Shown here in pieces: positions 12,588 to 38,040 of a stretch of DNA of 64,000 nt; positions within the stretch are counted from its first letter, which is position 1; each line of letters opens with the position of its first letter. A program made the position numbers and the translations under genes. Source of the DNA: Brachycybe producta. Lineage: Eukaryota; Arthropoda; Diplopoda; Playtdesmida; Andrognathidae. Location: the NCBI GenBank assembly GCA_036925085.1, contig JAUPFP010000001.1, forward strand, positions 12,545,354-12,609,353. Reading direction: 5' to 3'. The notes beneath the pieces are model-generated. The model was not told the DNA's origin, ran no database searches, and was given only the letters and a program-made list of their open reading frames with translations.

Positions 12588-15085
12588 TTGCTGGGAAACG
12601 ATCTCGGTAAAGACCTCAATCTTTGCCGTGACATGAACAAAAAGAAAGTGTATTTTGGAGAGGAACTGTTGCCGGACACTCTCCAAAAGAACCAAAAAGT
12701 AGAAGATTTTATTGAAAATCTTAAGAATAAAGAAGAGGAAGATCTGCAAGAGAAACTCCTGAATAAGGGGCCAGCTAAGCTACGTCTGATCCAGAATCTC
12801 GTGCTGGATCCGAAAAAAGTTGCAATCGTCGAGGTCAATGCTCCTGATGATCTACAAGAAGGTAGTCTTCAATTCATCGACTCGTGCGAAAGCACGTTCC
12901 AGCAGAGAGGAGTCAAAGTTTCTCCTGGGATCATTGAAGGAAGAGGAAAGTATATCCTTCAAATTCAAATCTTCAATCCGTCTGGAGAGGTTATTCACCT
13001 CGGAGCCAAAGAAACGATCGCAGAGATCGAGGACGCCATTACAGCTCTCGATGTGCCTGTGGGCCCCTCGATTTATAAAATTGAAGCACAGAGTGACGAA
13101 GTGACAGTACAAGACTATGTCAAATTTCAAGACAGTCTGAATGTCAATCCGAATCGTTCAAGAGAAGAACAAATGGCGATTCGGAAACTTCTCGGAGAAT
13201 TTAGAGATATTTTTGCCTTCAAGACCTCCGACTTGAAAAACACAAATTTGGCAAAACACGTGATTGACACGGGTGAAAACCCGCCGGTTCGAGAACCGCT
13301 CCGGCGTACTTCACCTGCTCAGAGAGAGATCATCAAGTCGACACTATGTGATATGTTGGACGCCGGCATTGTTAGCCCATCCAAGAGTCCGTACGCAAGT
13401 CCGGTGGTGATTGTCAAGAAGAATAATGGTCAGCATCGATTTTGCGTCGATTATCGCAAATTAAATGCTCAAACCAAATCTGACCAATATCCGTTACCAC
13501 GGATAGATGACACTTTCGACTCTCTGTCTGGAGCCACGATCTTTGCAACCTTGGATTTAATATCAGGTTATTGGCAATTTCCAGTGGAAGAAAGAGATCG
13601 AGAAAAAACGGCTTTCGTATGCACCAATGGCCTCTACGAATTTAATAGAATGCCGTTTGGTTTGATGAATGCACCTGCGACGATGCAGCGTGCTTTGGAT
13701 TTGTTGCTGGCAGGTCACAAATGGGAGACCTGCCTGGTTTATTTAGATGACATTGTCATCTTTGCGAAGAACTTCGAAGAGTTCATGAAAAGATTGAGAG
13801 ATATCTTGGTGCTCATCAGGAACGCCAATTTAAGTCTTCAACCCAGCAAATGTTTCTTCGGAGAAGACGAGATCAACTACCTTGGACACAAGTCTAGTGC
13901 CCTTGGTATTCGACCTGATGAAGAGAAAGTGCAGACGATTCAAGGATTTCCTGCACCAAAAAACGTGACTGACGTCAGAAGCTTCATTGGAATGACCGGC
14001 TACTACAACCGTTTCATTGAGAACTACTCCAAGATCGCCAAACCAATGCAAGCCCTAGTCAAGAAGGACCTGGACTTCAAGTGGAATGACGACTGCGAGG
14101 TCGCTTTTGATGGTTTAAAGAAGGCTCTTTGCTCCGCTCCGATTCTAACTTTGTATGATCCGGAGGCAGAAATTGCCTTGCACACTGATGCTTGTGATTA
14201 CCAGATTGGTGTCATAATTTATCAGTATGCGAAAAACGAAAAGAAACCTGGAGTTCTAGGCTACTACAGCCGAAAACTCCAAGGAGCAGAACGAAATTAC
14301 GGAACGACTGAAAAAGAATGTCTTGCAATCGTTTATGGCATAGAAAAAGCCAGACCGTATGTTTTCAACCGGAAATTCAAGATATTTACCGATCATAAGG
14401 CCCTGTGCTATTTAAAAACAGCACAGAATTTAGATGGCCGATTAGGTAAATGGCAGATGAAACTACAGCCATATGGCTATGAGGTAGTTTACAAGAAGGG
14501 TAAAACGCACGTGGATGCCGATTGTGTTTCACGTTACGAGAGCAACGTTCCTGCTAATTGGAAGCAGAAGAATGGGGAGATGGAAGCTCTCGAGGACCTT
14601 CACATCTTTCCTGTCTACAACGATTTCCAGTGGGAACGGGAGCAATCCCTTAATGAAGAACTTCTCCTCATCAAAGAATCACTCCAGCAAGATCGACTGC
14701 ATCCCTATCACAAGAAGTTTGCGATAGTGGATGGCGTTTTATACCACATGAAGTATGAAGACACCGTGCCAGTACTAACGTGTACTGTGCCCCGACAGTT
14801 GAGAATTGGGATTCTCGAGATGCTCCATGATGTGCCTGAGGCCGGGCATTTCGGATTCACCAAAACGATGAAGAGAATCCAGAAGAGATTCTATTGGAAA
14901 ACAATGAAAACAGACGTCGCCGACTATGTCAGGTCGTGCCACATCTGTCAGAGAACCAAACTGTCGCACCAAAAAGTACCTGGATTGTTACAACCAATCA
15001 TTGTGGGAAAACCGACAGAGTGTTGGGGGATGGATTATGTTGGTCCTCTTCCGAAGTCAGTCGGAGGAGTTCAACATATTTTGAT
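12588..15085 (+). pseudogene. Pol of gypsy element 2, left part (RT, RNase H, start of integrase)
   Basis: An uninterrupted frame of about 830 codons carries the protease tail (LGNDLGKDLNLCRDM), a long linker, then RT with RFCVDYRKLN, FATLDLISGYWQ and VYLDDIVIFAK. The connection is FIGMTGYYNRFIENYSKIAKP. RNase H follows with LHTDACDYQIGVII, NYGTTEKECLAIVYG and FTDHKALCYL. The integrase zinc domain is HDVPEAGHFG ... RSCHICQRTK (about 14825-14960), and the core starts with GMDYVGPLPK. At 15085 the DNA transposon interrupts the integrase between its first two core strands. Upstream, a TGA at 12576-12578 (CGA in element 3) separates the protease frame. Confidence 0.92.
15077..15085 (+). repeat. 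Target site duplication, left copy (TATTTTGAT)
   Basis: The 9-bp sequence TATTTTGAT directly precedes the transposon and recurs directly after it (27114-27122). The uninterrupted homologous site in element 3 (near 37543-37551) has a single copy. This proves insertion and fixes both ends. Nine bases is the size typical of Mutator-like elements. Confidence 0.95.
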
Positions 15086-15150
15086 ACGTTACGTCCATGA
15101 AGTTAGAACCAAATAACGCCCTCTAGCGGCCGCTGCGGTATTTGCTTAGC
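15086..15150 (+). repeat. Left terminal inverted repeat of the MULE-like element
   Basis: The core TGAAGTTAGAAC, AAATA, CGCC, CTAGCG and GCGGTAT appears in the same order as in the reverse complement of 27050-27113. The outermost about 10 bases do not match between ends. The repeat contains the palindrome AGCGGCCGCT. Confidence 0.8.
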
Positions 15151-15212
15151 AGAGAAGTATCTTCCAGGCAAACACCCATATACATAACATGAAGATATAA
15201 ATTAAATTAAAA

Positions 15213-18200
15213 TAAATTCTGTTTCGGTCAACAGAATTTAATAAAAATAGGCAGGCCAACTGCCTAAAGTGTGCTAAATACGTGGGTGTTCTCCATTTCT
15301 TTCCGATTTGCACGTGTCGAATTTCAGAAAATATTTTTTGAACGTGCACAAAATTATAATAGGCTAAGCTAAGAGCATATGTAAAACGCCACAAAAAAAA
15401 GTTATAAATTCTGTTTCGGTCAACAGAATTTAATAAAAATAGGCAGGCCAACTGCCTAAAGTGTGCTAAATACGTGGGTGTTCTCCATTTCTTTCCGATT
15501 TGCACGTGTCAAATTTCAGAAAATATTTTTTGAACGTGCACAAAATTATAATAGGCTAAGCTAAGAGCATATGTAAAACGCCACAAAAAAAAGTTATAAA
15601 TTCTGTTTCGGTCAACAGAATTTAATAAAAATAGGCAGGCCAACAGCCTAAAGTGTGCTAAACACGTGGGTGTTCTCCATTTCTTTCCGATTTGCACGTG
15701 TCGAATTTCAGAAAATATTTTTTGAACGTGCACAAAATTATAATAGGCTAAGCTAAGAGCATATGTAAAACGCCACAAAAAAAAGTTATAAATTCTGTTT
15801 CGGTCAACAGAATTTAATAAAAATAGGCAGGACAACTGCCTAAAGTGTGCTAAACACGTGGGTGTTCTCCATTTTTTTCCGATTTGCACGTGTCAAATTT
15901 CAGAAAATATTTTTTGAACGTGCACAAAATTATAATAGGCTAAGCTAAGAGCATATGTAAAACGCCACAAAAAAAAGTTATAAATTCTGTTTCGGTCAAC
16001 AGAATTTAATAAAAATAGGCAGGCCAACTGCCTAAAGTGTGCTAAACACGTGGGTGTTCTCCATTTCTTTCCGATTTGCACGTGTCGAATTTCAGAAAAT
16101 ATTTTTTGAACGTGCACAAAATTATAATAGGCTAAGCTAAGAGCATATGTAAAACGCCACAAAAAAAGTTATAAATTCTGTTTCGGTCAACAGAATTTAA
16201 TAAAAATAGGCAGGCCAACTGCCTAAAGTGTGCTAAATACGTGGGTGTTCTCCATTTCTTTCCGATTTGCACGTGTCGAATTTCAGAAAATATTTTTTGA
16301 ACGTGCACAAAATTATAATAGGCTAAGCTAAGAGCATATGTAAAACGCCACAAAAAAAAAGTTATAAATTCTGTTTCGGTCAACAGAATTTAATAAAAAC
16401 AGGCAGGCCAACTGCCTAAAGTGTGCTAAATACGTCGGTGTTCTCCATTTCTTTCCGATTTGCACGTGTCGAATTTCAGAAAATATTTTTTGAACGTGCA
16501 CAAAATTATAATAGGCTAAGCTAAGAGCATATGTAAAACGCCACAAAAAAAAGTTATAAATTCTGTTTCGGTCAACAGAATTTAATAAAAATAGGCAGGC
16601 CAACTGCCTAAAGTGTGCTAAACACGTGGGTGTTCTCCATTTCTTTCCGATTTGCACGTGTCGAATTTCAGAAAATATTTTTTGAACGTGCACAAAATTA
16701 TAATAGGCTAAGCTAAGAGCATATGTAAAACGCCACAAAAAAAAGTTATAAATTCTGTTTCGGTCAACAGAATTTAATAAAAATAGGCAGGCCAACTGCC
16801 TAAAGTGTGCTAAATACGTGGGTGTTCTCCATTTCTTTCCGATTTGCACGTGTCGAATTTCAGAAAATATTTTTTGAACGTGCACAAAATTATAATAGGC
16901 TAAGCTAAGAGCATATGTAAAACGCCACAAAAAAAAGTTATAAATTCTGTTTCGGTCAACAGAATTTAATAAAAATAGGCAGGCCAACTGCCTAAAGTGT
17001 GCTAAACACGTGGGTGTTCTCCATTTTTTTCCGATTTGCACGTGTCAAATTTCAGAAAATATTTTTTGAACGTGCACAAAATTATAATAGGCTAAGCTAA
17101 GAGCATATGTAAAACGCCACAAAAAAAAGTTATAAATTCTGTTTCGGTCAACAGAATTTAATAAAAATAGGCAGGCCAACTGCCTAAAGTGTGCTAAACA
17201 CGTGGGTGTTCTCCATTTCTTTCCGATTTGCACGTGTCGAATTTCAGAAAATATTTTTTGAACGTGCACAAAATTATAATAGGCTAAGCTAAGAGCATAT
17301 GTAAAACGCCACAAAAAAAAGTTATAAATTCTGTTTCGGTCAACAGAATTTAATAAAAATAGGCAGGCCAACTGCCTAAAGTGTGCTAAATACGTGGGTG
17401 TTCTCCATTTCTTTCCGATTTGCACGTGTCGAATTTCAGAAAATATTTTTTGAACGTGCACAAAATTATAATAGGCTAAGCTAAGAGCATATGTAAAACG
17501 CCACAAAAAAAAGTTATAAATTCTGTTTCGGTCAACAGAATTTAATAAAAACAGGCAGGCCAACTGCCTAAAGTGTGCCAAATACGTGGGTGTTCTCCAT
17601 TTCTTTCCGATTTGCACGTGTCGAATTTCAGAAAATATTTTTTGAACGTGCACAAAATTATAATAGGCTAAGCTAAGAGCATATGTAAAACGCCACAAAA
17701 AAAAGTTATAAATTCTGTTTCGGTCAACAGAATTTAATAAAAATAGGCAGGCCAACTGCCTAAAGTGTGCTAAACACGTGGGTGTTCTCCATTTCTTTCC
17801 GATTTGCACGTGTCGAATTTCAGAAAATATTTTTTGAACGTGCACAAAATTATAATAGGCTAAGCTAAGAGCATATGTAAAACGCCACAAAAAAAGTTAT
17901 AAATTCTGTTTCGGTCAACAGAATTTAATAAAAATAGGCAGGCCAACTGCCTAAAGTGTGCTAAATACGTGGGTGTTCTCCATTTCTTTCCGATTTGCAC
18001 GTGTCGAATTTCAGAAAATATTTTTTGAACGTGCACAAAATTATAATAGGCTAAGCTAAGAGCATATGTAAAACGCCACAAAAAAAAGTTATAAATTCTG
18101 TTTCGGTCAACAGAATTTAATAAAAATAGGCAGGCCAACTGCCTAAAGTGTGCTAAACACGTGGGTGTTCTCCATTTCTTTCCGATTTGCACGTGTCGAA

Positions 18201-19212
18201 TTTCATAAAATATTTTTTGAACGTGCACAAAATTATAATAGGCTAAGCTAAGAGCATATGTAAAACGCCACAAAAAAAAGTTATAAATTCTGTTTCGGTC
18301 AACAGAATTTAATAAAAATAGGCAGGCCAACTGCCTAAAGTGTGCTAAACACGTGGGTGTTCTCCATTTCTTTACGATTTGCACGTGTCAAATTTCAGAA
18401 AATATTTTTTGAACGTGCACAAAATTCTAATAGGCTAAGCTAAGAGCATATGTAAAACGCCACAAAAAAAAGTTATAAATTCTGTTTCGGTCAACAGAAT
18501 TTAATAAAAATAGGCAGGCCAACTGCCTAAAGTGTGCTAAACACGTGGGTGTTCTCCATTTCTTTCCGATTTGCACGTGTCGAATTTCAGAAAATATTTT
18601 TTGAACGTGCACAAAATTCTAATAGGCTAATCTAAGAGCATATGTAAAACGCCACAAAAAAAAGTTATAAATTCTGTTTCGGTCAACAGAATTTAATAAA
18701 AATAGGCAGGCCAACTGCCTAAAGTGTGCTAAACACGTGGGTGTTCTCCATTTTTTTCCGATTTGCACGTGTCAAATTTCAGAAAATATTTTTTGAACGT
18801 GCACAAAATTCTAATAGGCTAAGCTAAGAGCATATCTAAAACGCCACAAAAAAAAGTTATAAATTCTGTTTCGGTCAACAGAATTTAATAAAAATAGGCA
18901 AGCCAACTGCCTAAAGTGTGCTAAACACGTGGGTGTTCTCCATTTCTTTCCGATTTGCACGTGTCAAATTTCAGAAAATATTTTTTGAACGTGCACAAAA
19001 TTCTAATAGGCTAAGCTAAGAGCATATGTAAAACGCCACAAAAAAAAGTTATAAATTCTGTTTCGGTCAACAGAATTTAATAAAAATAGGCAGGCCAACT
19101 GCCTAAAGTGTGCTAAAGACGTGGGTATTCTCCATTTTTTTCCGATTTGTACTTGTCAAATTTTACAAAATATTTTTTGAACGTGCACAAAATTTTAATA
19201 GACCATAAGCTA
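15213..19212 (+). repeat. 192-bp satellite array, left arm, about 20.8 copies
   Basis: The unit starts ATTCTGTTTCGGTCAACAGA and repeats at 15221, 15413, 15605 and so on every 192 bp (191-193 where an A-run varies from 7 to 9). Units are very similar, differing by diagnostic variants: TAAATACG versus TAAACACG, GTCGAAT versus GTCAAAT, AAAATAGG versus AAAACAGG. Each unit has short stems such as ATTCTGTT/AACAGAAT and AGGCAG/CTGCCT. Units 17-20 (inner end) carry TTCTAAT instead of TTATAAT. The innermost unit (19059-19212) is diverged. Because 192 is divisible by 3, the minus strand stays open through many units, but this is a by-product. Confidence 0.97.
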
Positions 19213-19759
19213 AAATCTGTTCCAGGCTGACATCAATAATAAATGAATCAAGAATGTCCAATTGTCTTAAAAATGTTTACAAATATTTTATTACATTATT
19301 ATTCTAATACAATTTGTTGTTTGTTACACTAAAAGTACATTATTTATATAATATTAGTCCTGGTGGAATGAAACCAAAGCAGATTATGCCATTATTATAA
19401 AGACAAGTTTTTTCATAGGTGAAATTTGAATAGGTTATTTGTTGCAGAAGAAAATCTAAAAACATTTAACATTAAAGTAATATGATTACCATTCAATAAT
19501 GGAATGAAAAACTTTGCCTTTCTTACACAATATCCATGATAATGTTAAAATAAACATTTTTCACATCGTTACCATTCGTGAAAACAAGATCTAAAATATA
19601 AAAAAAATAATTAAACTGATGTGCACATTTAAATGTTACTGAAGTTGTTAATTACAACAAATGTGAGGATTTATCCACATAAACTAGCAGAAACAAGAAC
19701 ATATACTGTATAGTTATTACACCTTATTAATCCTCCAGTGTTGTATATTATGCTTACCT
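19213..19759. other. AT-rich non-coding DNA, 3' side of the MULE gene
   Basis: It lies between the left satellite arm and the stop codon of the OTU-encoding exon. I see no reading frame or repeat. It probably contains the 3' untranslated region. Confidence 0.5.
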
Positions 19760-20455
19760 CTAGACTACACTAACCACTGCCTGAAAGTGGCCACCTCTAA
19801 GTTGGAGGTATATGTTATTGCCACTTATACCTCCTGGTTGATCTGTTGGGTAATAATGCCATTTACCCAATTTCTTTTTATCAGGAATGTCATAGACACA
19901 AATTGGCACATTGAATAAATGTGTAGCACTAATCAGGCTGTCTGAATCACCCCACTCAGTAAGTTGTCGCATTTTTGCAACAGAGGTTGTCCCAAATGTG
20001 ATGAGTTGGGGGTTATAGTCCAGGAAGTCACATGTCAGTTTCCTTATAAGAGCATGATGTGCAACATCTCCAGAAATAATCCATGATATTGCCCTAAATA
20101 AACAATTACCATCTCCAGCAACATTGTACAATGTTTTGGGTAGTGACAAGCTTTGTTGATGCTGAAAAGTTCTATCCTGAGCCACGAATGGGATGCCGAG
20201 TTTTGTACACATCTCAATGCACCATGAACCTGAAACTGGATAAAATTTGCCATAATCAGGAAGGTTAGAAAATTGAAAACCACGATTTGGCCCATTGACT
20301 GTTTGCATTAGTGAACTTGGAGTCTCCTTATGTTCCTGTGTAGTATTAGGACACAGTGTCCTTGTTTCTTTTTTTGATTTCTTCCATTGCTCTTCGGCCA
20401 GTTGAGGGTTTTCATATTTTTTTTTACCCAATTTTATTCGATCTCCAATTGAATT
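19760..20455 (-). pseudogene. MULE gene, 3' exon: OTU-type cysteine protease domain
   Basis: This frame has the OTU catalytic Asp-Gly-Asn-Cys box in NVAGDGNCLFRAISW (near 20115) and the C-terminal His in LRGGHFQAVV (near 19785). Both are spaced as in OTU deubiquitinases, which cut ubiquitin or ubiquitin-like chains. It connects upstream in phase 0 to the transposase: the donor GTAATA (20516) and acceptor TTATTTTAG (ends 20456) define a 61-nt intron joining SSK to NSIGDRIK. There is no Met start of its own at the expected place, supporting fusion to the transposase. The domain itself has no stop or frameshift. Confidence 0.8.
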
Positions 20456-20516
20456 CTAAAATAAATGTGTTTTAATCTTATGTATAATTTCATAAATCAT
20501 TCAATTAATGTATTAC

Positions 20517-22497
20517 TTTTGATGAAGTTCTCTGTTTAGTGCTCTTAATCCACTGTAATGCAAACTTCTTGCATAAACCAAATATGTACGGCTGGTACAA
20601 CCTAACAAAATCACTGCCAAAAACATTACTCTCTTTATAGACTTGATTTTTTACACGCCCAGCTGCATTCGTCAATTGCTGAAAATTTTGATGTCCAAGT
20701 GCAATTGGCAATGCTGCAGACCATAATGGATAAACTGGAAAATATGTTTTTCCTATTACTTCCATGACGACAGGGCAGTAATACTCATTCAAGGTAGTTT
20801 CTTTATCTTTTACTGTTTTGCAAGCTACTTCAATTTCTTTAAAGAAGGAATAAAATTTCGAGCGTTCTCGGATTGTTGGCTTGTCCAGTGAAACATCATA
20901 ATCTTGTTGATTGTCTGTTAAACAGTAATCCTCGACATCATCTAAATTCTCTAGTCTATTATAAATAACATTCAAGAACACCTTTGCTTTGTCCAATTGC
21001 TGTTTAGAGAGCGTCCTCCGATTGAAGATAGTGAATCCAATATCTAAAACACTGCTAGTCACATCAATAGATGTGGCTCTTTGGAGGCAAGCAATGAAAT
21101 GCATTGCCATTCTCTTTACTTTTTTGCAAGATTGGGGAATTTTTGAGGACAGGTTACGTCGAAAGGCTGTTAAAATGTGTGCAGTACATATAAAAACAAT
21201 AGGTGATAAAATAAACAGAGTTTCATTTGTCAACTCCCTATGCAGTGCTTTCCAGCTGGCATTCAAGTACATCTCATCAGGCTTGAAAGACATGCATGAA
21301 TCATGGCATAAGAAAAGTCAACTACCACAATACGAAAGGCTTTGTGGCCTTTATTGAACTGCATCAAGTTGTGGTTTATATCTTTCAGGAAATCTGCTAT
21401 GTCATCACTGCGATGACGATTTGAAATCATATCACCTAAAGAAAAGGATCCAAAGTTTTTTACATGTACAATTAATGAATAGAGAAAAACCCTTTTGGAA
21501 TTAGTCTCGGGCTTGCGAACAAGTTTTCCTGTAGCATCAAGGTGAACTTCGAGGCCACATTCCTGTTTTGAAACATCTGCTGCCAATTGCATCTGAGAAG
21601 CTGAAAACATGTGCACCATAAATGGATCTGGTGAAAGCTTTTGAATAAAACCTGGAAGTTTTGATCCAGACTGGATAGTGCACATTTTATTTTTTAATGT
21701 GATTAAGTCTGCAAAAACATCAGACTTGAAAGTTCTACAAGAAAGAATAGCTTCTGACTTCATTTTATTTAATACAAATAAACTTGGTACTGGTACATTA
21801 CCGTGAAGAAGCCGAGAGCCTTCTGTTGCTTCCAGAAGCTCCATGTGGATACTTTTTGCTGACTGGTGTTTCAGCTTCTCTTTTAGAGTATCTCTTTCGA
21901 CTGAACGAATTTGACGACCTGTTCATTTTGGATGAGATAACATTATGTTTTGATCACATGTAATCAAAACACTCACTTCTTGCAATGGAATTGGTTTGGT
22001 TTCAACTACACAGGTAAATTTTGCAGAACACTTGCAGTGACCATAGCACTTAAAGTAGAAAACATCTGTTTCTCGTTCACCACTTGCCAATGAGTACTGA
22101 GGTCCTTTGTTTGCTGTAAAAGAACAACATCCTTGTGTACTGCTAAGTTTCAAACTGAAATATATAGGCCATTTTCTTAGTAACAACTTGCCAGAGTTAT
22201 AATCATAAAAGTTGCTAAATTCATTGTATGAGAATGTCATCATAAAATTTCTAGGCAGGCTCTTGTTAATATTGTTGATATCTATATCAAAAACTGCTGC
22301 TAGTGTGCTATGTTCAAGATGCTTTTTTCCAATAAGTTCATCATTGTTGGGAAATTCTTCATCACTTGTTAAGGACATAGTTTCTTCGCTATTTGTGGAA
22401 GTAATGTCTATGGATGGAGCTGATGCAATAACAGACACATCCACATCACTGGTTTCATCTGAAAATGATTTATTATCTTGAGATAATGACATGAATA
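20517..22497 (-). pseudogene. MULE gene, middle part: Cys/His cluster and DDE transposase
   Basis: 22492-21923 starts with an acidic Ser-rich stretch and ends with a Cys/His cluster (FKCYGHCKCSAKFTC), probably a DNA-binding zinc finger of the kind found at the N-terminus of MULE transposases. A TGA at 21925-21923 interrupts it, and the same frame continues. 21844-21263 has the RNase H-like core: LEVHLDATGKLV (first Asp) and IVVVDFSYAMIHAC (second Asp). A one-base frameshift near 21290 leads to 21293-20517, which has ICTAHILTAFRR, the C-x-x-H motif typical between the second Asp and the Glu in MULEs. The protein would excise and insert the element by its end repeats. The catalytic Glu was not located with certainty. 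Confidence 0.75.
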
Positions 22498-22528
22498 CTA
22501 TTTGATAATAGTATTAAATAAAACATAC

Positions 22529-23316
22529 TAGTGCCTTTTTCATTGAAAATTGCAGTAACATCAGATGAACATGATGGACAATACCAGTTTTTTTTTGTCT
22601 TTTTATAAATTACACAAGGACGAGACAAGCCAAAGTGGAACCAGTCAAAACAAGCATCACATCTTACCATTGGCTTGTCTTCATCTCCTGCATATGGTTT
22701 TCTGCAAAAACAGAAAACTTTTCCAATAGAGGACTCATCGTGGCATACCCTGCTTTTCCTATCAGTTTTTGTTTCACCAGGAGAGTAACGTATTCATGGC
22801 TTAACTACTCTCTTTTTTGGCAAATCAACAACTGCACAAACATCTTTGTTCATTGTTTCTGTGATTCCAAAGTCATTTATCTTTGGAATTTGAGAAATAT
22901 TCCGTAAATCCTGAAGGATGCCATCTCGTTTTGAAGACTTGCAATATTTTTCTATATAACTTTTTATTTCATCATGTGAGCGACCATTAGATACTGCATA
23001 TTTTAAAACCAAATCTTGTGTTTTGGTACAATCCCTGTGCACACGTGAAAAGTATTTGGCCTTGTCATTAACTTGAGAAACAGAAAAATGCATATATTGA
23101 AACACAATCGGAATAGTTAATTTCAGAAATGCAAAGCTTCCAATGTCACTCAGCTTATTTGTTCCAAGCGCATTTAAAAGTTTAAGTTGAAATTCAGCTA
23201 CTTCGTTATCAGTCTTCTTGAAGTTATAAGTTCTTTTTTTCCCTAATTAATTTAAATTTTAAAAACTTAGTGTAATTGCCTATCAAAATAAACTTAAAAA
23301 TAACTGACGTACCCAT
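22529..23316 (-). pseudogene. MULE gene, 5' part: N-terminal helical region and PHD finger
   Basis: The best start is the ATG at 23316-23314: ATGG is followed at 23312 by a donor GTACGTCA and, 70 nt later, by an acceptor ATTAG (ends 23243), which joins in frame to GKKRTYNFKKTDNEVAEF. About 150 residues of unknown, mostly helical sequence follow. Then comes a PHD finger (22735-22560): VFCFCRKPYAGDEDKP, MVRCDACFDWFHFGL and WYCPSCSS, with all Cys/His ligands visible. PHD fingers usually read histone H3 tails in the nucleus. An in-frame TGA at 22796-22794 splits the frame, possibly CGA decayed to TGA. The frame then meets a possible 31-nt intron (22528-22498, GT...AG) or a frameshift. Confidence 0.7.
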
Positions 23317-23429
23317 TATGAACTAGAAAATGAAGATATCACAAAGATTGTGTTGAACCTGAAATGTGCCAACAGGAAATAATAAATACAATTTATTTTT
23401 ATATTAGGTCAACATTTGCAAGGTTAGGT

Positions 23430-24005
23430 TAGGTTAGGTGTACATGTGTGTACGCATGTGCACAAGTGCATACATGTGCGCGCACAAGTGCATACATGTG
23501 CATACGCATGCACGCAAGTGCGTACATGTGCATACGCATGCACGCAAGTGCGTACATGTGCATACGCATGCACGCAAGTGCATACATGTGCATACACATG
23601 CACGCAAGTGCGTACATGTGCATACGCATGCGCGCAAGTGCGTACATGTGCGTACGCATGTGCGCAAGTGCGTACATGTGCGTACGCATGTGCGCAAGTG
23701 CGTACATGTGCGTACGCATGTGCGCAAGTGCGTACATGTGCGTACGCATGTGCACATGTGCGTACGCATGCGTGCAAGTGCGTACATGTGCGTATGCATG
23801 CGTGCAAGTGCATGCATGTGCATATGCATGCGTGCAAGTCCGAAAAAGTTTGTACGCATGCGTGCACATGTAAATGTGTGTACACATGGATGCACGTGTG
23901 TAAATGTGCACACGTGTGTACATGTGCATACTCATGCACACACGTGTGTTCATGTGCGTACTCATGCATGCACATGTGTTCATGTGCGTACTCATGAGCA
24001 CACAT
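23430..24005. repeat. 30-bp alternating purine-pyrimidine minisatellite
   Basis: The core unit, CGTACATGTGCATACGCATG followed by CACGCAAGTG, repeats exactly every 30 bp from about 23461 to 23850, then degenerates to 24005. Almost every step alternates pyrimidine-purine, and palindromes such as GCATGC, CGTACG and TGCGCA abound. All six frames stay open for 140-200 codons giving Cys/His/Ala-rich nonsense, which is a consequence of the repeat. It is preceded at 23421-23439 by three and a half TTAGG units. Confidence 0.95.
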
Positions 24006-26069
24006 GTAACAATGAAAAATGCTGGTTATTTGTTATATGAAAGCATGTATTAAAGCAATGGAGGTCTATAGGGTTCCTTGAATCCCTTGTTTGTTACTGC
24101 ATTCAGTTTTTTTCATTAAAAATCTACATATTTTACTGAAATCAATTTACAACTTTTTTGGATCTCTTGTATTAAGACCCTTCTTGCCAAATAACAAGAA
24201 TTAAAAAATTAAATTTGTGATTTAATAAAAAGCATAATTTGAGGTCGCTTTATAGATATTCAATTGCTTTTCCCCACCACAACGCCACTAAAGTACCATA
24301 ATGCTATGATATATAAATGTGTTTGCACAATTTGGATGCAAAAATGTCAGGCAAATATTTTTAGAAGCATTATTATGAAAACACTGAAATTGTTTTCAAA
24401 ACTAGAATGGTAATGGATTATGTGCTAAAAGTTTTTTCATGGCAATATCTTCAAAATAAACATTTTATAGTTCAGTTTGAAAATGACCTGTTTCTTAGAT
24501 TTTCCATTGACATGAAAAACTATTTTCATCTTTTTCAAACTGTCATAAAAAGTGTATTTGTAAAGACCTCAGCATGAAAAAAAAAACATGTAGCATTACC
24601 ACCAACTATTCTAGTTTTTAAAACACATTGAATTTGTTTGTAATATTTCTTTCTTAAAATCATGGATGAGACAAAAAGACCTCCACCATCTGTGGGGGCA
24701 AAAACAAAAATATGTATTGAACCACGTTAAACATTTTCCTATTTTGGGTCCATTGTTGATTTTTATGAGTTTGGAAATGACCAAACTGGTTGGTGGTTTT
24801 AAAGTGACGACTATCTTCGAGCTCTGGTTATTTCGCCTAAAGAGCAAAATGAAGAGAAACTTGAATGTATTAAAAACTAGAAGGTAGCTCAGTCACACAG
24901 GAGATATGTTTCATGTTAATATCTTTCAAAATAAGCTTTTTATGTTAGTTTGAAAATGATCAATCTTTATGCTTTCAATATTTTTCATTTTTTGTATAAA
25001 TAAAGTTTATTTTGAGAAATATCCACATAAAAATACCCATAAGTGATTGTGCTAAGCTCTTAGTTTCTAAAACACAGTTTCTAATAATTTTGCTTCAGAA
25101 AGACAGAATAATCACATTATATTTTTTATCTTGTTTATAAAAAGTTTATTTTGAAAGTAATCAACGTGAAAATACTGTTAAGTAATTCAGTTAACATTCT
25201 AGATTCTAATAGTTTCAGTTTCTCTTTAGTAGTTCGAATCAAACTTTCTCAAGTAAATTTTAATCTCCTTTGTGGTTTTTAGCTTTTTCATCTTGTTGAA
25301 TGTAATATTTTTGTTTATTGTTCGATTGCACATACATAATAAATAACATCATAATTAATAAATACCTGTAATTAATAAGGCAGTCTTGGAAGTTTCAGTC
25401 TTGTGAAAATGGTGAAAGTGGCGATTGCACTTTCTGTTGTACAGCAGGGTCACACAAGATACCACTTGGCTCATGACAAAAAACAACTAAAATGTTGTAA
25501 CTTATTTTCAGAAGTATAAATGCTCAAAAATGCTGCTGTAAAAAGACCACAACTAAACAGAAAATAGGATCATTTTCAGGACATTGACCATTTCATGAAA
25601 CACTATAGGGCCTATTGATTTTAATTTGATTTTCTAAGAAAAGAAGAATCTTTTAATGAATAGCATCGGTGACTTTTTCTGCAATGTTCTAGAAGATGTT
25701 CCTTTGATGAATGCCGCCTATACATTTCTCTGTGATGTTGAAGTAAATTACCTTTCAATGAAAAATTAATTTACCTTTGATTTCCCCCTTCTAGATAGAT
25801 ATGGCTAGAGGTGTTCAAGCCTATTTGTTACAATTACTATATAAAAAGTGTAGCCTAGATTTTCAAGAGTTCAATGAAACCTTTAAGAGTGCTAGATAAT
25901 TTAAAATTTAATAGCTATATCCCAAACGAAATTTATAAAAAAATATCAAATACAATATATCATTATATTATCATATACAAGTATATTATATATATATCAT
26001 ATGTCATTTATGCAGTTATCTATTGATCAAAATAAAAAATACAGCATTTTATAGTGACTTTAGTAAAGT
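24006..26069. other. AT-rich non-coding interior of the MULE-like element
   Basis: I see no credible gene. Several degenerate copies of a module (a T-rich run, then TTTGAAAG/TTTCAAAA, then ATATC, then a CATGAAAA-like motif) occur near 24430, 24915, 25005 and 25145. Related sequence is near 57145 and 58835, outside the element. A TATATA stretch lies at 25960-26000. Confidence 0.5.
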
Positions 26070-26793
26070 TATTAGAATTTTGCAAACATTCAAAATATTT
26101 TGTTAAATTTGACACGTGCAAATCGGAAAAAAATGGAGAACACCCACGTGTTTAGCACACTTTAGGCAGTTGGCTTGCCTATTTTTATTAAATTCTGTTG
26201 ACCGAAACAGAATTTATAACTTTTTTTGTGGCGTTTTAGATATGCTCTTAGCTTAGCCTATTAGAATTTTGTGCACGTTCAAAAAATATTTTCTGAAATT
26301 TGACACGTGCAAATCGGAAAAAAATGGAGAACACCCACGTGTTTAGCACACTTTAGGCAGTTGGCCTGCCTATTTTTATTAAATTTTGTTGACCGAAACA
26401 GAATTTATAACTTTTTTTTGTGGCGTTTTAGATATGCTCTTAGCTAGCCTATTAGAATTTTGTGCACGTTCAAAAAATATTTTCTGAAATTTGACACGTG
26501 CAAATCGGAAAAAATGGAGAACGCCCACGTGTTTAGCACACTTTAGGAAGTTGGTCTGCCTATTTTTATTAAATTCTGTTGACCGAAACAGAATTTATAA
26601 CTTTTTTTTGTGGCGTTTTAGATATGCTCTTAGCTTAGCCTATTAGAATTTTGTGCACGTTCAAAAAATATTTTCTGAAATTTGACACGTGCAAATCAGA
26701 AAAAAATGGAGAACACCCACGTGTTTAGCACACTTTATGCAGTTAATCTGCCTATTTTTATTAAATTCTGTTGACCGAAGCAGAATTTATAAC
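26070..26793 (-). repeat. 192-bp satellite array, right arm, about 3.8 copies, inverted
   Basis: This is the same unit in reverse complement. It shares with the innermost left units the variants TTCTAAT, ATATCTAAAA, GTCAAAT and the six-T run, and a similarly altered inner edge (ACAAAATATT in place of CAGAAAATATT). The two arrays are therefore homologous inverted arms rather than independent satellites. Confidence 0.95.
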
Positions 26794-27049
26794 AGTTTTA
26801 AGTGGAATATTATCATTACTCAGTACTAAGTCTGTGGAGACTTCGGATGTACTTAGAAATGTTTTTCCACGTTTTTAAACTACAATAAAAAGTTTTATTT
26901 TAATTACAAGGTTTTTTTATTTTATTTTTAAACACTTCATTACAAAACATTTACTGCAATTCATCATCACAGTATTTAACAATTCACGACATAGTTTAGT
27001 GTTTTACTGGTTTTAAATATCGTGCACTTTGACGTCATAAGGGACACTT
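26794..27049. other. Spacer between right satellite arm and right terminal repeat
   Basis: About 255 bp of AT-rich, non-coding DNA with no counterpart at the left end, where the spacer is only about 60 bp. Confidence 0.5.
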
Positions 27050-27113
27050 AGACCATACCGCACTGGCCAGTAGGGGCGCTAGTGGCGCTATTTAGTTCTA
27101 ACTTCAAGGATCC
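27050..27113 (-). repeat. Right terminal inverted repeat of the MULE-like element
   Basis: The reverse complement begins GGATCCTTGAAGTTAGAACT, then AAATAGCGCC and CTAGCG, matching the left end with scattered mismatches and a few indels. Confidence 0.8.
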
Positions 27114-27122
27114 TATTTTGAT
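27114..27122 (+). repeat. Target site duplication, right copy (TATTTTGAT)
   Basis: It is an exact copy of 15077-15085. Flanking bases differ outside the 9 bp, so the duplication length is exact. Confidence 0.95.
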
Positions 27123-37048: not shown

Positions 37049-38040
37049 ATGGAAGCTCTCGAAGATCTTCACATCTTTACTGTCTACACCGATTTCCAGT
37101 GGGAACGGGAGCAATCCCTTGAGGAAGAACTTCTCCTCATCAAAGAATCACTCCAAAAAGATCGACTGCATCCCTATCACAAGAAGTTTGCGATAGTGGA
37201 TGGCGTTTTATACCACCTGAAGTATGAAGACACCGTGCCAGTACTGACGTGTACTGTGCCCCGACAATTGAGAATTGGAATTCTCGAAATGCTCCATGAT
37301 GTGCCTGAGGCCGGACATTTCGGATTAACCAAAACGATGAAGAGAATCCAGAAGCGATTCTACTGGAAGACAATGAAAGCAGATGTCGCCGGCTATGTCA
37401 GGTCGTGCCCCATCTGTCAGAAAACCAAACTGTCGCACCAAAAAGTACCTGGATTGCTTCAGCCAATCATTGTGGGAAAACCGACAGAGTGTTGGGGAAT
37501 GGACTATGTTGGTCCTCATCCGAAATCAACCGGAGGAGTTCAACATATTTTGATTGCAGTGGACTACGCGACGAAGTATTGCATCGCCAAAGCAGTGGCA
37601 AGAGCAACTGCTCAGGCAGCAATTGCCTTCGTCAAGCACAAAATTGTAAACGAGTTTGGAGTTCCTCAGAAGATCATCACTGATCAAGGACCCCAATACT
37701 TGAGTAACGAAACTCAAGCGTTTTTCAAGACCTATGCAATCCAGCATGCTGCCACAACAGCCTATCATCCACAAGCTGATGGGTTGGCAGAAAGAACGAA
37801 CCATACAGTCATGGAAGTAGTGAAACATCACTTGGATGTCCTTCAGCAGCAAGCTGACTGGAAAAAGAAATTAGGTGACACAGTTATGGCCTACAATCTG
37901 GTAGAGCATAACTCAACAAAATTTTCGCCATATTGATTGATGTTCGGGCGCGAGCCCAGGACCACGTTGGATAACATGATGCCACATGCTCCTATTGTGC
38001 CTCCGCCCGTAACAGACGAAGCAGAGCAGTCCGATCCAGC
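37049..38040 (+). pseudogene. Integrase of gypsy element 3
   Basis: The zinc domain (HDVPEAGHFGLTKT ... CPICQKTK) is followed by the core with GMDYVGPHPK, ITDQGPQYL and HPQADGLAERTNHTV. At 37934 a TGA replaces the CGA of element 2 after KFSPY. A small deletion near 38060 shifts the frame before the C-terminal region. The uninterrupted sequence AACATATTTTGATTGCAG at 37540 is the empty-site reference for the transposon insertion in element 2. Confidence 0.88.

Follow-up and report, generated by a model that had tools for sequence, protein, structure and literature searches.

A probable Rehavkus-type transposon with arrayed inverted ends and a broken gene for PHD, transposase core and OTU domains

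Introduction

Rehavkus elements are characterized in Table 1 and section 8 of PMC6446971 by a PHD finger, a 9-bp target-site duplication and a minisatellite, and section 8 states that in 2019 they were very few and were described in Repbase only. In the passages that describe Rehavkus-1_TC of Tribolium castaneum, the element is 9.5 kb long and has 164-bp units in inverted termini, mostly with five and eight monomers (PMC10218199). Repbase has merged Rehavkus into MuDR on the basis of a weak but significant similarity, according to the part of PMC4455052 that deals with the group, and Rehavkus has also been taken as an outgroup to MULEs (PMC13359780). The Phantom elements listed in Table 1 of PMC6446971 have no zinc finger or one of the FLYWCH or SWIM type, their target-site duplications are 8-10 bp where indicated, and the aphid Phantoms carry a minisatellite after the ORF. 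A link between transposases and proteases was drawn for Ginger1, whose authors proposed that OTU and Ulp1 domains may act on repair factors in transposition; a figure legend in the same paper refers to an alignment in which the Ulp1 and PHD domains come from transposases of Ginger1 and Mutator (PMC2836005).

In this report, we describe a transposon in a stretch of 64,000 nucleotides (the window) from Brachycybe producta. The element is probably a Rehavkus-type (Foldback-like) DNA transposon whose transposase carried a PHD finger, a core and an OTU domain; this copy can no longer supply transposase. On three features of its anatomy we classify it as a new Rehavkus family, and probably as an OTU-bearing variant.

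Insertion and Ends of the Element

The transposon occupies positions 15086 to 27113 (~12 kb), lies within a gypsy element and is flanked by exact 9-bp duplications of TATTTTGAT at 15077-15085 and 27114-27122. When the insert is left out, the joined flanks match one unbroken 563-bp stretch of a sister gypsy element at 93% identity, in which TATTTTGAT occurs once, at 37546-37554, as the empty site. The left end domain (15091-15201, plus strand) begins with an imperfect terminal inverted repeat in its first ~40 bp, and the right end domain (26813-27113, minus strand) finishes in the inverted repeat at 27074-27110. The two ends align over 38 bp with a score of 25, and the maximum among 1000 shuffles was 14. 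The target duplication, the imperfect inverted repeats and the empty site had all been reported in a preliminary description of this DNA, and each of them was confirmed.

Five extra bases (15086-15090) separate the left target duplication from the usual left end. The target duplications of two other copies in the genome, C16 and C7, directly abut ACGTCCATGAAG, so the element proper starts with ACGTCC at 15091, and the five bases before it are an addition at the left junction of the window copy.

Inside the end domains are two arrays of a 192-bp unit that the preliminary description did not include. The left array (15202-19213, plus strand) consists of ~21 tandem copies, most of them 96-100% alike; identity drops only where the units change register and toward the inside end of the array. 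The right array (26070-26812, minus strand) consists of ~4 copies in the opposite orientation, which match the left unit at 93-97%. Together the inverted arrays make up about 4.7 kb of the 12-kb element, and their position inside each end domain gives the element a Foldback-like structure. If the units served as secondary binding sites, similarity to the end domains might be predicted; in four of four comparisons the similarity between end domains and unit was no greater than that of shuffled sequences. Two CACGTG sites are present in the unit at 16546-16737, as is a hairpin whose 9-bp stem (AATTCTGTT...AACAGAATT) closes a 6-base loop. A search of the window against Rfam gave no match at the gathering threshold.

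The Gene and Its Domains

A minus-strand gene running from 23246 to 19763 begins with an N-terminal domain, which is followed by a PHD finger, a cysteine-rich region, a transposase core in two halves and an OTU domain. The gene is broken, as it is present in six stop-to-stop pieces separated by two in-frame stops and three frame changes. The first piece (22797-23246, 150 aa) is the N-terminal domain and is without a Pfam match. The second piece (22476-22793) contains the PHD finger, which matches PF00628 with 29.1 bits against a cut-off of 24 (E 1e-6) and has all eight of the C4HC3 ligands. PHD fingers usually have an H-x2-C spacing, and the spacing here is H-x6-C instead. The closest solved structures are those of Spp1 of COMPASS, a reader of methylated histone H3 tails, and the tryptophan of a DWFH motif in the piece is presumably part of a methyl-lysine cage. 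The region between the PHD finger and the core (21926-22513) contains conserved QGCCSF and GHCKC...F.C motifs.

The first half of the core (21266-21922, 219 aa) has D codons at 21536 and 21317, and the second half (20508-21317, 270 aa) has a CxxH at 21177-21188 and a candidate catalytic E at 20835. The last piece (19763-20455, 231 aa) is a candidate OTU cysteine protease, predicted from its sequence, that exceeds the Pfam cut-off (PF02338, E 2.7e-8). Its D, C and H codons are at 20111, 20102 and 19787, and the DGNC and GGH motifs are present both in the window and in a second long copy, C86. In a more distant relative (C5) the first motif reads DSNC and the match does not reach its His. The OTU piece is similar to OTUD5 and OTUD1 chains, and when it was modeled alone with AlphaFold the pLDDT was 34, and the model was set aside. 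Nothing beyond PHD and OTU was found at the cut-offs in the Pfam scan of the gene pieces. The earlier reading of PHD ligands and of an OTU DGNC...GGH pair on this strand is thereby upheld by the complete set of eight ligands and by both Pfam matches.

Other Copies in the Genome

The genome (295 Mb) was searched for other copies. It contains a bantam microRNA, which marks protostomes, and a search for mir-250 (RF00836) gave no match. The left end has at least eight matches, seven of which reach the outer bases, and the right end has at least four. A 9-bp target duplication could be demonstrated at three of the eight left-end matches, namely the window, C16:563300-565163 (AACAAATTT) and C7:508292-509159 (CTTTTCATG). 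The latter two are short derivatives with hardly anything besides ends and array units, their ends are 99% identical to those of the window copy, and they have been mobilized. An intact right end was not found for the other five left-end matches. Among these, C86:164219-182038 is a second long copy that has lost its last right-hand bases, so that no duplication can be read, and no right end was found for C74, C1:6180091, C3:5333419 or a 35-base piece at C10:2302669. The number of left-array units varies between copies, being ~21 in the window, ~4 in C86, 3 in C16 and 2 in C7. The C86 copy (G000:C86) is in a palindromic setting, as its flanks are inverted versions of each other.

In C86, the sole other long copy with both ends, the OTU, core and PHD sequences all lie between the left end near 164219 and the right end near 182038. 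The preliminary description had placed the PHD and OTU parts inside the terminal repeats, and the second long copy agrees. It had also proposed that intact copies be sought with the terminal repeats; this search recovered C16, C7 and C86, but the two long copies, C86 and the window, are both broken. The first half of the core has 12 genome-wide matches and the second half has 11, and in both cases stop-free cover from end to end was seen only for the window itself.

That chance or assembly joined a gypsy element to unrelated repeats is scarcely conceivable: long tandem arrays can be assembled with the wrong copy number, but C16 and C7, which share the ends and have 9-bp duplications of their own, and C86, which shares 4.4 kb of internal sequence (96%), are independent copies that refute an artefact for everything except the exact number of array units.

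Constraint and Domain Order

The gene regions of the window and C86 are 98.1% identical over 3576 aligned bases (96.3% over 4421 by BLAST). Across the pieces, 27 changes fall on 725 synonymous sites and 39 on 2755 non-synonymous sites, giving a dN/dS of 0.38 (Fisher P 1.8e-4) with short overlaps of the pieces counted twice. Four of the changes create stops in C86. By piece, dN/dS is 0.21-0.34 for the N-terminal domain, the PHD finger, the cysteine-rich region and the second core half, 0.72 for the OTU piece (18 changes) and 1.66 for the first core half (7 changes altogether). The overall value indicates that the lineage was constrained before both long copies decayed.

Six distant relatives were fetched, and in these the pieces occur in the same order on one strand with identities to the window of 30-67%. 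The relative at C5 extends from PHD to OTU, that at C3:5311k from the N-terminal domain to the second core half, and that at C10 from the N-terminal domain to the first core half. The cysteine-rich region is present with both core halves at C3:6867k, with part of the core at C1:5956k and with the PHD finger at C1:7615k. The PHD finger is at the same position in the relatives. In an alignment of C86, C5, C3:5311k and C3:6867k, the second D and the CxxH are conserved in all four sequences, the candidate E in three and the first D in two, being missing in C5 and C3:5311k as aligned. The presence of the first D in only two of four aligned relatives slightly lowers our confidence in a Rehavkus-type transposon.

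Most likely the transposase was a single protein in which the N-terminal domain and PHD finger were followed by the cysteine-rich region, the D-D-E core with CxxH and, at the C terminus, the OTU domain. The N-terminal domain and PHD finger share a single open frame in two relatives, C1:7615k and C24. An OTU domain follows the core in two of the four fetched relatives with a second core half (C86 and C5), and the genome-wide list of OTU matches has none near C10:2619k or C3:6867k. It is improbable that the element is a composite in which the transposase and the OTU protein were two separate genes, the OTU acting in trans. In the window the OTU piece is 52 bp from the core piece and in a different frame, OTU clusters without PHD or core between them exist in the same genome, and two of the four relatives have a second core half without a detected OTU, all of which would suit two genes. 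Against this, an open frame at C5 covers both the tail of the core and the leader of the OTU domain, although the core half of this match is weak (43 against a shuffle maximum of 40; 60 against 48 for the OTU leader), and the close spacing of core and OTU is the same in C86 as in the window.

OTU Clusters and Nested Repeats

Genome-wide, the OTU piece is matched at 44 places, 7 of them in copies of the family, 1 in C5, 27 at C1:22.09-22.20 Mb and 9 on C63. The last two groups form tandem clusters (G000:C1:22090301-22196862 and G000:C63:31000-65170) whose best members are 36-41% identical to the transposon OTU, and seven of the OTU matches in the C1 cluster are stop-free over 168-207 residues. 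In one cluster stretch that was read (L057), an OTU frame of 204 aa has an upstream neighbor in an overlapping frame, with no PHD or core between the two. This N-terminal-like frame is similar to the N-terminal domain of the relative at C10, with a score of 71 where shuffles reach at most 49; its score with that of the window is not significant (42 against 49). The clusters may consist of host genes derived from a transposon of this kind or of what deleted copies have left behind in tandem, and domesticated or satellite-like gene arrays are possible.

Upstream of the gene is a minisatellite with a ~30-bp period (23424-24040) that is open on both strands and has a shared flank to about 24092. 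It also occurs at C10:2620.9-2621.4 kb and C16:578.3-578.7 kb, and is therefore perhaps a nested repeat in its own right. Just past the minisatellite at C10 is a 50-bp sequence that resembles the right end of the element (84%). Diverged inverted repeat pieces (76-83%) at 24841-25227 of the window have counterparts to either side of the C7 insertion and are probably a nested short inverted-repeat element.

Classification

The 9-bp duplication, the PHD finger and the tandem repeats in inverted termini are three features of anatomy that are all found here and support an assignment to Rehavkus. The preliminary description had called the element Mutator-like. This name fits in so far as the PHD, transposase and OTU domains lie inside the ends and Repbase places Rehavkus in its Mutator group in the part of PMC4455052 concerned; it is not borne out by the MULE profile. 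The core had likewise been described as MULE-like, and it does have the D...D...CxxH residues, but PF10551 matched neither core half. Thus, of the three protein families proposed for a search, PHD and OTU are above their cut-offs and MULE is unmatched.

A genome-wide scan with the MULE profile gave 31 places at E up to 10, with 21 over the cut-off, and this element is not among the 31. The places have open frames of up to 1088 aa and exist beside the decayed Rehavkus family. When a shallow profile of the core was compared with a shallow profile built from four MULE proteins of this genome, one setting aligned the first-D block (P 0.21) and the second an unrelated stretch (P 0.38), and neither was significant. 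A pattern of core spacing was matched by the window, by 1 of 20000 shuffles and by none of the four MULE proteins tested; it carries no weight, since it was devised after the sequence had been seen and none of these MULE proteins fits it. Scans of viral contigs found no relative; 18 and 10 stretches fitted a search pattern, and none of them was confirmed. Searches of protein databases with the core piece and the OTU piece gave no relative at E 1e-3 among 121 and 85 candidates, respectively, and were poorly designed because such pieces do not find full-length proteins. A read-through of 1155 residues, of which residues 244-1155 were scored, gave no relative at E 1e-3 among 5538 candidates.

It is quite improbable that the element is a Phantom or another ordinary animal MULE that has captured fragments of PHD and OTU domains from host genes in the manner of a Pack-MULE. 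The 8-10-bp duplications where indicated for Phantom and the minisatellite after the ORF in aphids (PMC6446971, Table 1) would agree with such an origin, as would the D, D and CxxH residues of the core. However, the domain order is common to relatives that are only 30-67% identical and the gene evolved under constraint, which argues that PHD and OTU are no fresh capture. In addition, no FLYWCH, SWIM or MULE match was found in the gene pieces scanned, the MULE scan of the genome did not include the element, and a PHD finger is a mark of Rehavkus. Mosaic capture by a Phantom was rejected on these grounds. The comparison with Phantom that the preliminary description had recommended is likewise not supported by domain content, as the Phantoms of that Table 1 are without PHD and this element has PHD and, in the pieces scanned, no FLYWCH or SWIM match.

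Proposed Mechanism

For the Rehavkus-type transposon that we favor, we infer cut-and-paste transposition by the encoded protein. An earlier, working transposase would have used the inverted ends to excise the element and inserted it at a staggered cut of 9 bp within the gypsy element, giving rise to the duplication. The inverted 192-bp arrays are part of the mobilized ends and most likely provide extra binding sites for the transposase. With ~21 units, the left array of the window is longer than those of C7, C16 and C86, which have about 2-4, and it has probably expanded. The PHD finger might steer the transposase to chromatin that carries a mark, and the OTU domain might take ubiquitin off the transposase or a chromatin partner.

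A more elaborate proposal, which we regard as doubtful, is that in this branch of Rehavkus the PHD finger as a reader of histone marks picks the target and the OTU domain as an eraser removes ubiquitin from the transposase or at the target site, which would let strand transfer or repair go ahead. The OTU and N-terminal module would later have left the transposon and given the tandem host clusters at C1:22.09-22.20 Mb and C63.

Comparison with Known Systems

The closest described element is Rehavkus-1_TC, which shares the 9-bp duplication, a PHD finger with the transposase, a length of ~10 kb and, in both inverted ends, tandem repeats with units of 100-200 bp (PMC6446971, PMC10218199). It differs in that the units here are 192 bp and not 164 bp, and the left array has ~21 of them where mostly five and eight are given. 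By description, the two also differ in that a candidate OTU protease is present here and none is mentioned for Rehavkus-1_TC. A PHD finger with a transposase and arrayed ends is thus already known for Rehavkus, and the earlier remark that an architecture of PHD, transposase and OTU is not known to be well described narrows to the OTU domain, for which no description in Rehavkus was found. The papers searched that name Rehavkus make no mention of OTU in their main texts, and a wider literature search for OTU with Rehavkus gave no description among the matches listed. A Repbase record may already show OTU in Rehavkus.

Tetris of Drosophila virilis is of the Foldback type and has long inverted ends of tandem units (TIR-220), an end domain outside the array, 8-10-bp duplications and a variable array length (PMC4079207). 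That study found no Tetris copy that encodes a transposase, whereas here the gene is present, although broken. The Phantom MULEs share duplications of 8-10 bp where indicated and, in aphid members, a minisatellite, but they are without a listed PHD (PMC6446971, Table 1), and here no MULE, FLYWCH or SWIM match was obtained in the pieces scanned.

Ginger1 transposases resemble the protein described here in carrying a C-terminal OTU or Ulp1 domain, and Ginger1-9_HM has both Ulp1 and PHD (PMC2836005, Table 1). Their transposase is of the Gypsy-integrase type, in contrast to the core pieces here, which have no integrase match, and OTU and PHD occur together in no Ginger1 among the rows of that table that were covered. 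The Mutators of hydra, lancelet and plants that bear Ulp1 are similar in combining a transposon of the Mutator group with a cysteine protease of the ubiquitin/SUMO pathway (PMC2836005). By description, the domain is Ulp1 there and OTU here. Because transposases already occur together with OTU in Ginger1 and with Ulp1 in some Mutators (PMC2836005), the combination in this element is less surprising.

A family with short mobile derivatives, variable arrays and divergent relatives provides material for placing Rehavkus with respect to MULEs, and the variation of array length in one genome offers a view of how arrayed ends become longer. Should the OTU fusion prove general, Rehavkus would stand alongside Ginger1 and animal Helitrons as a case of OTU traveling with a transposition enzyme (in the parts of PMC2836005 and PMC6431247 that treat them). 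The Mutators that bear Ulp1 would then be a parallel case, and a role of ubiquitin in transposition would become testable.
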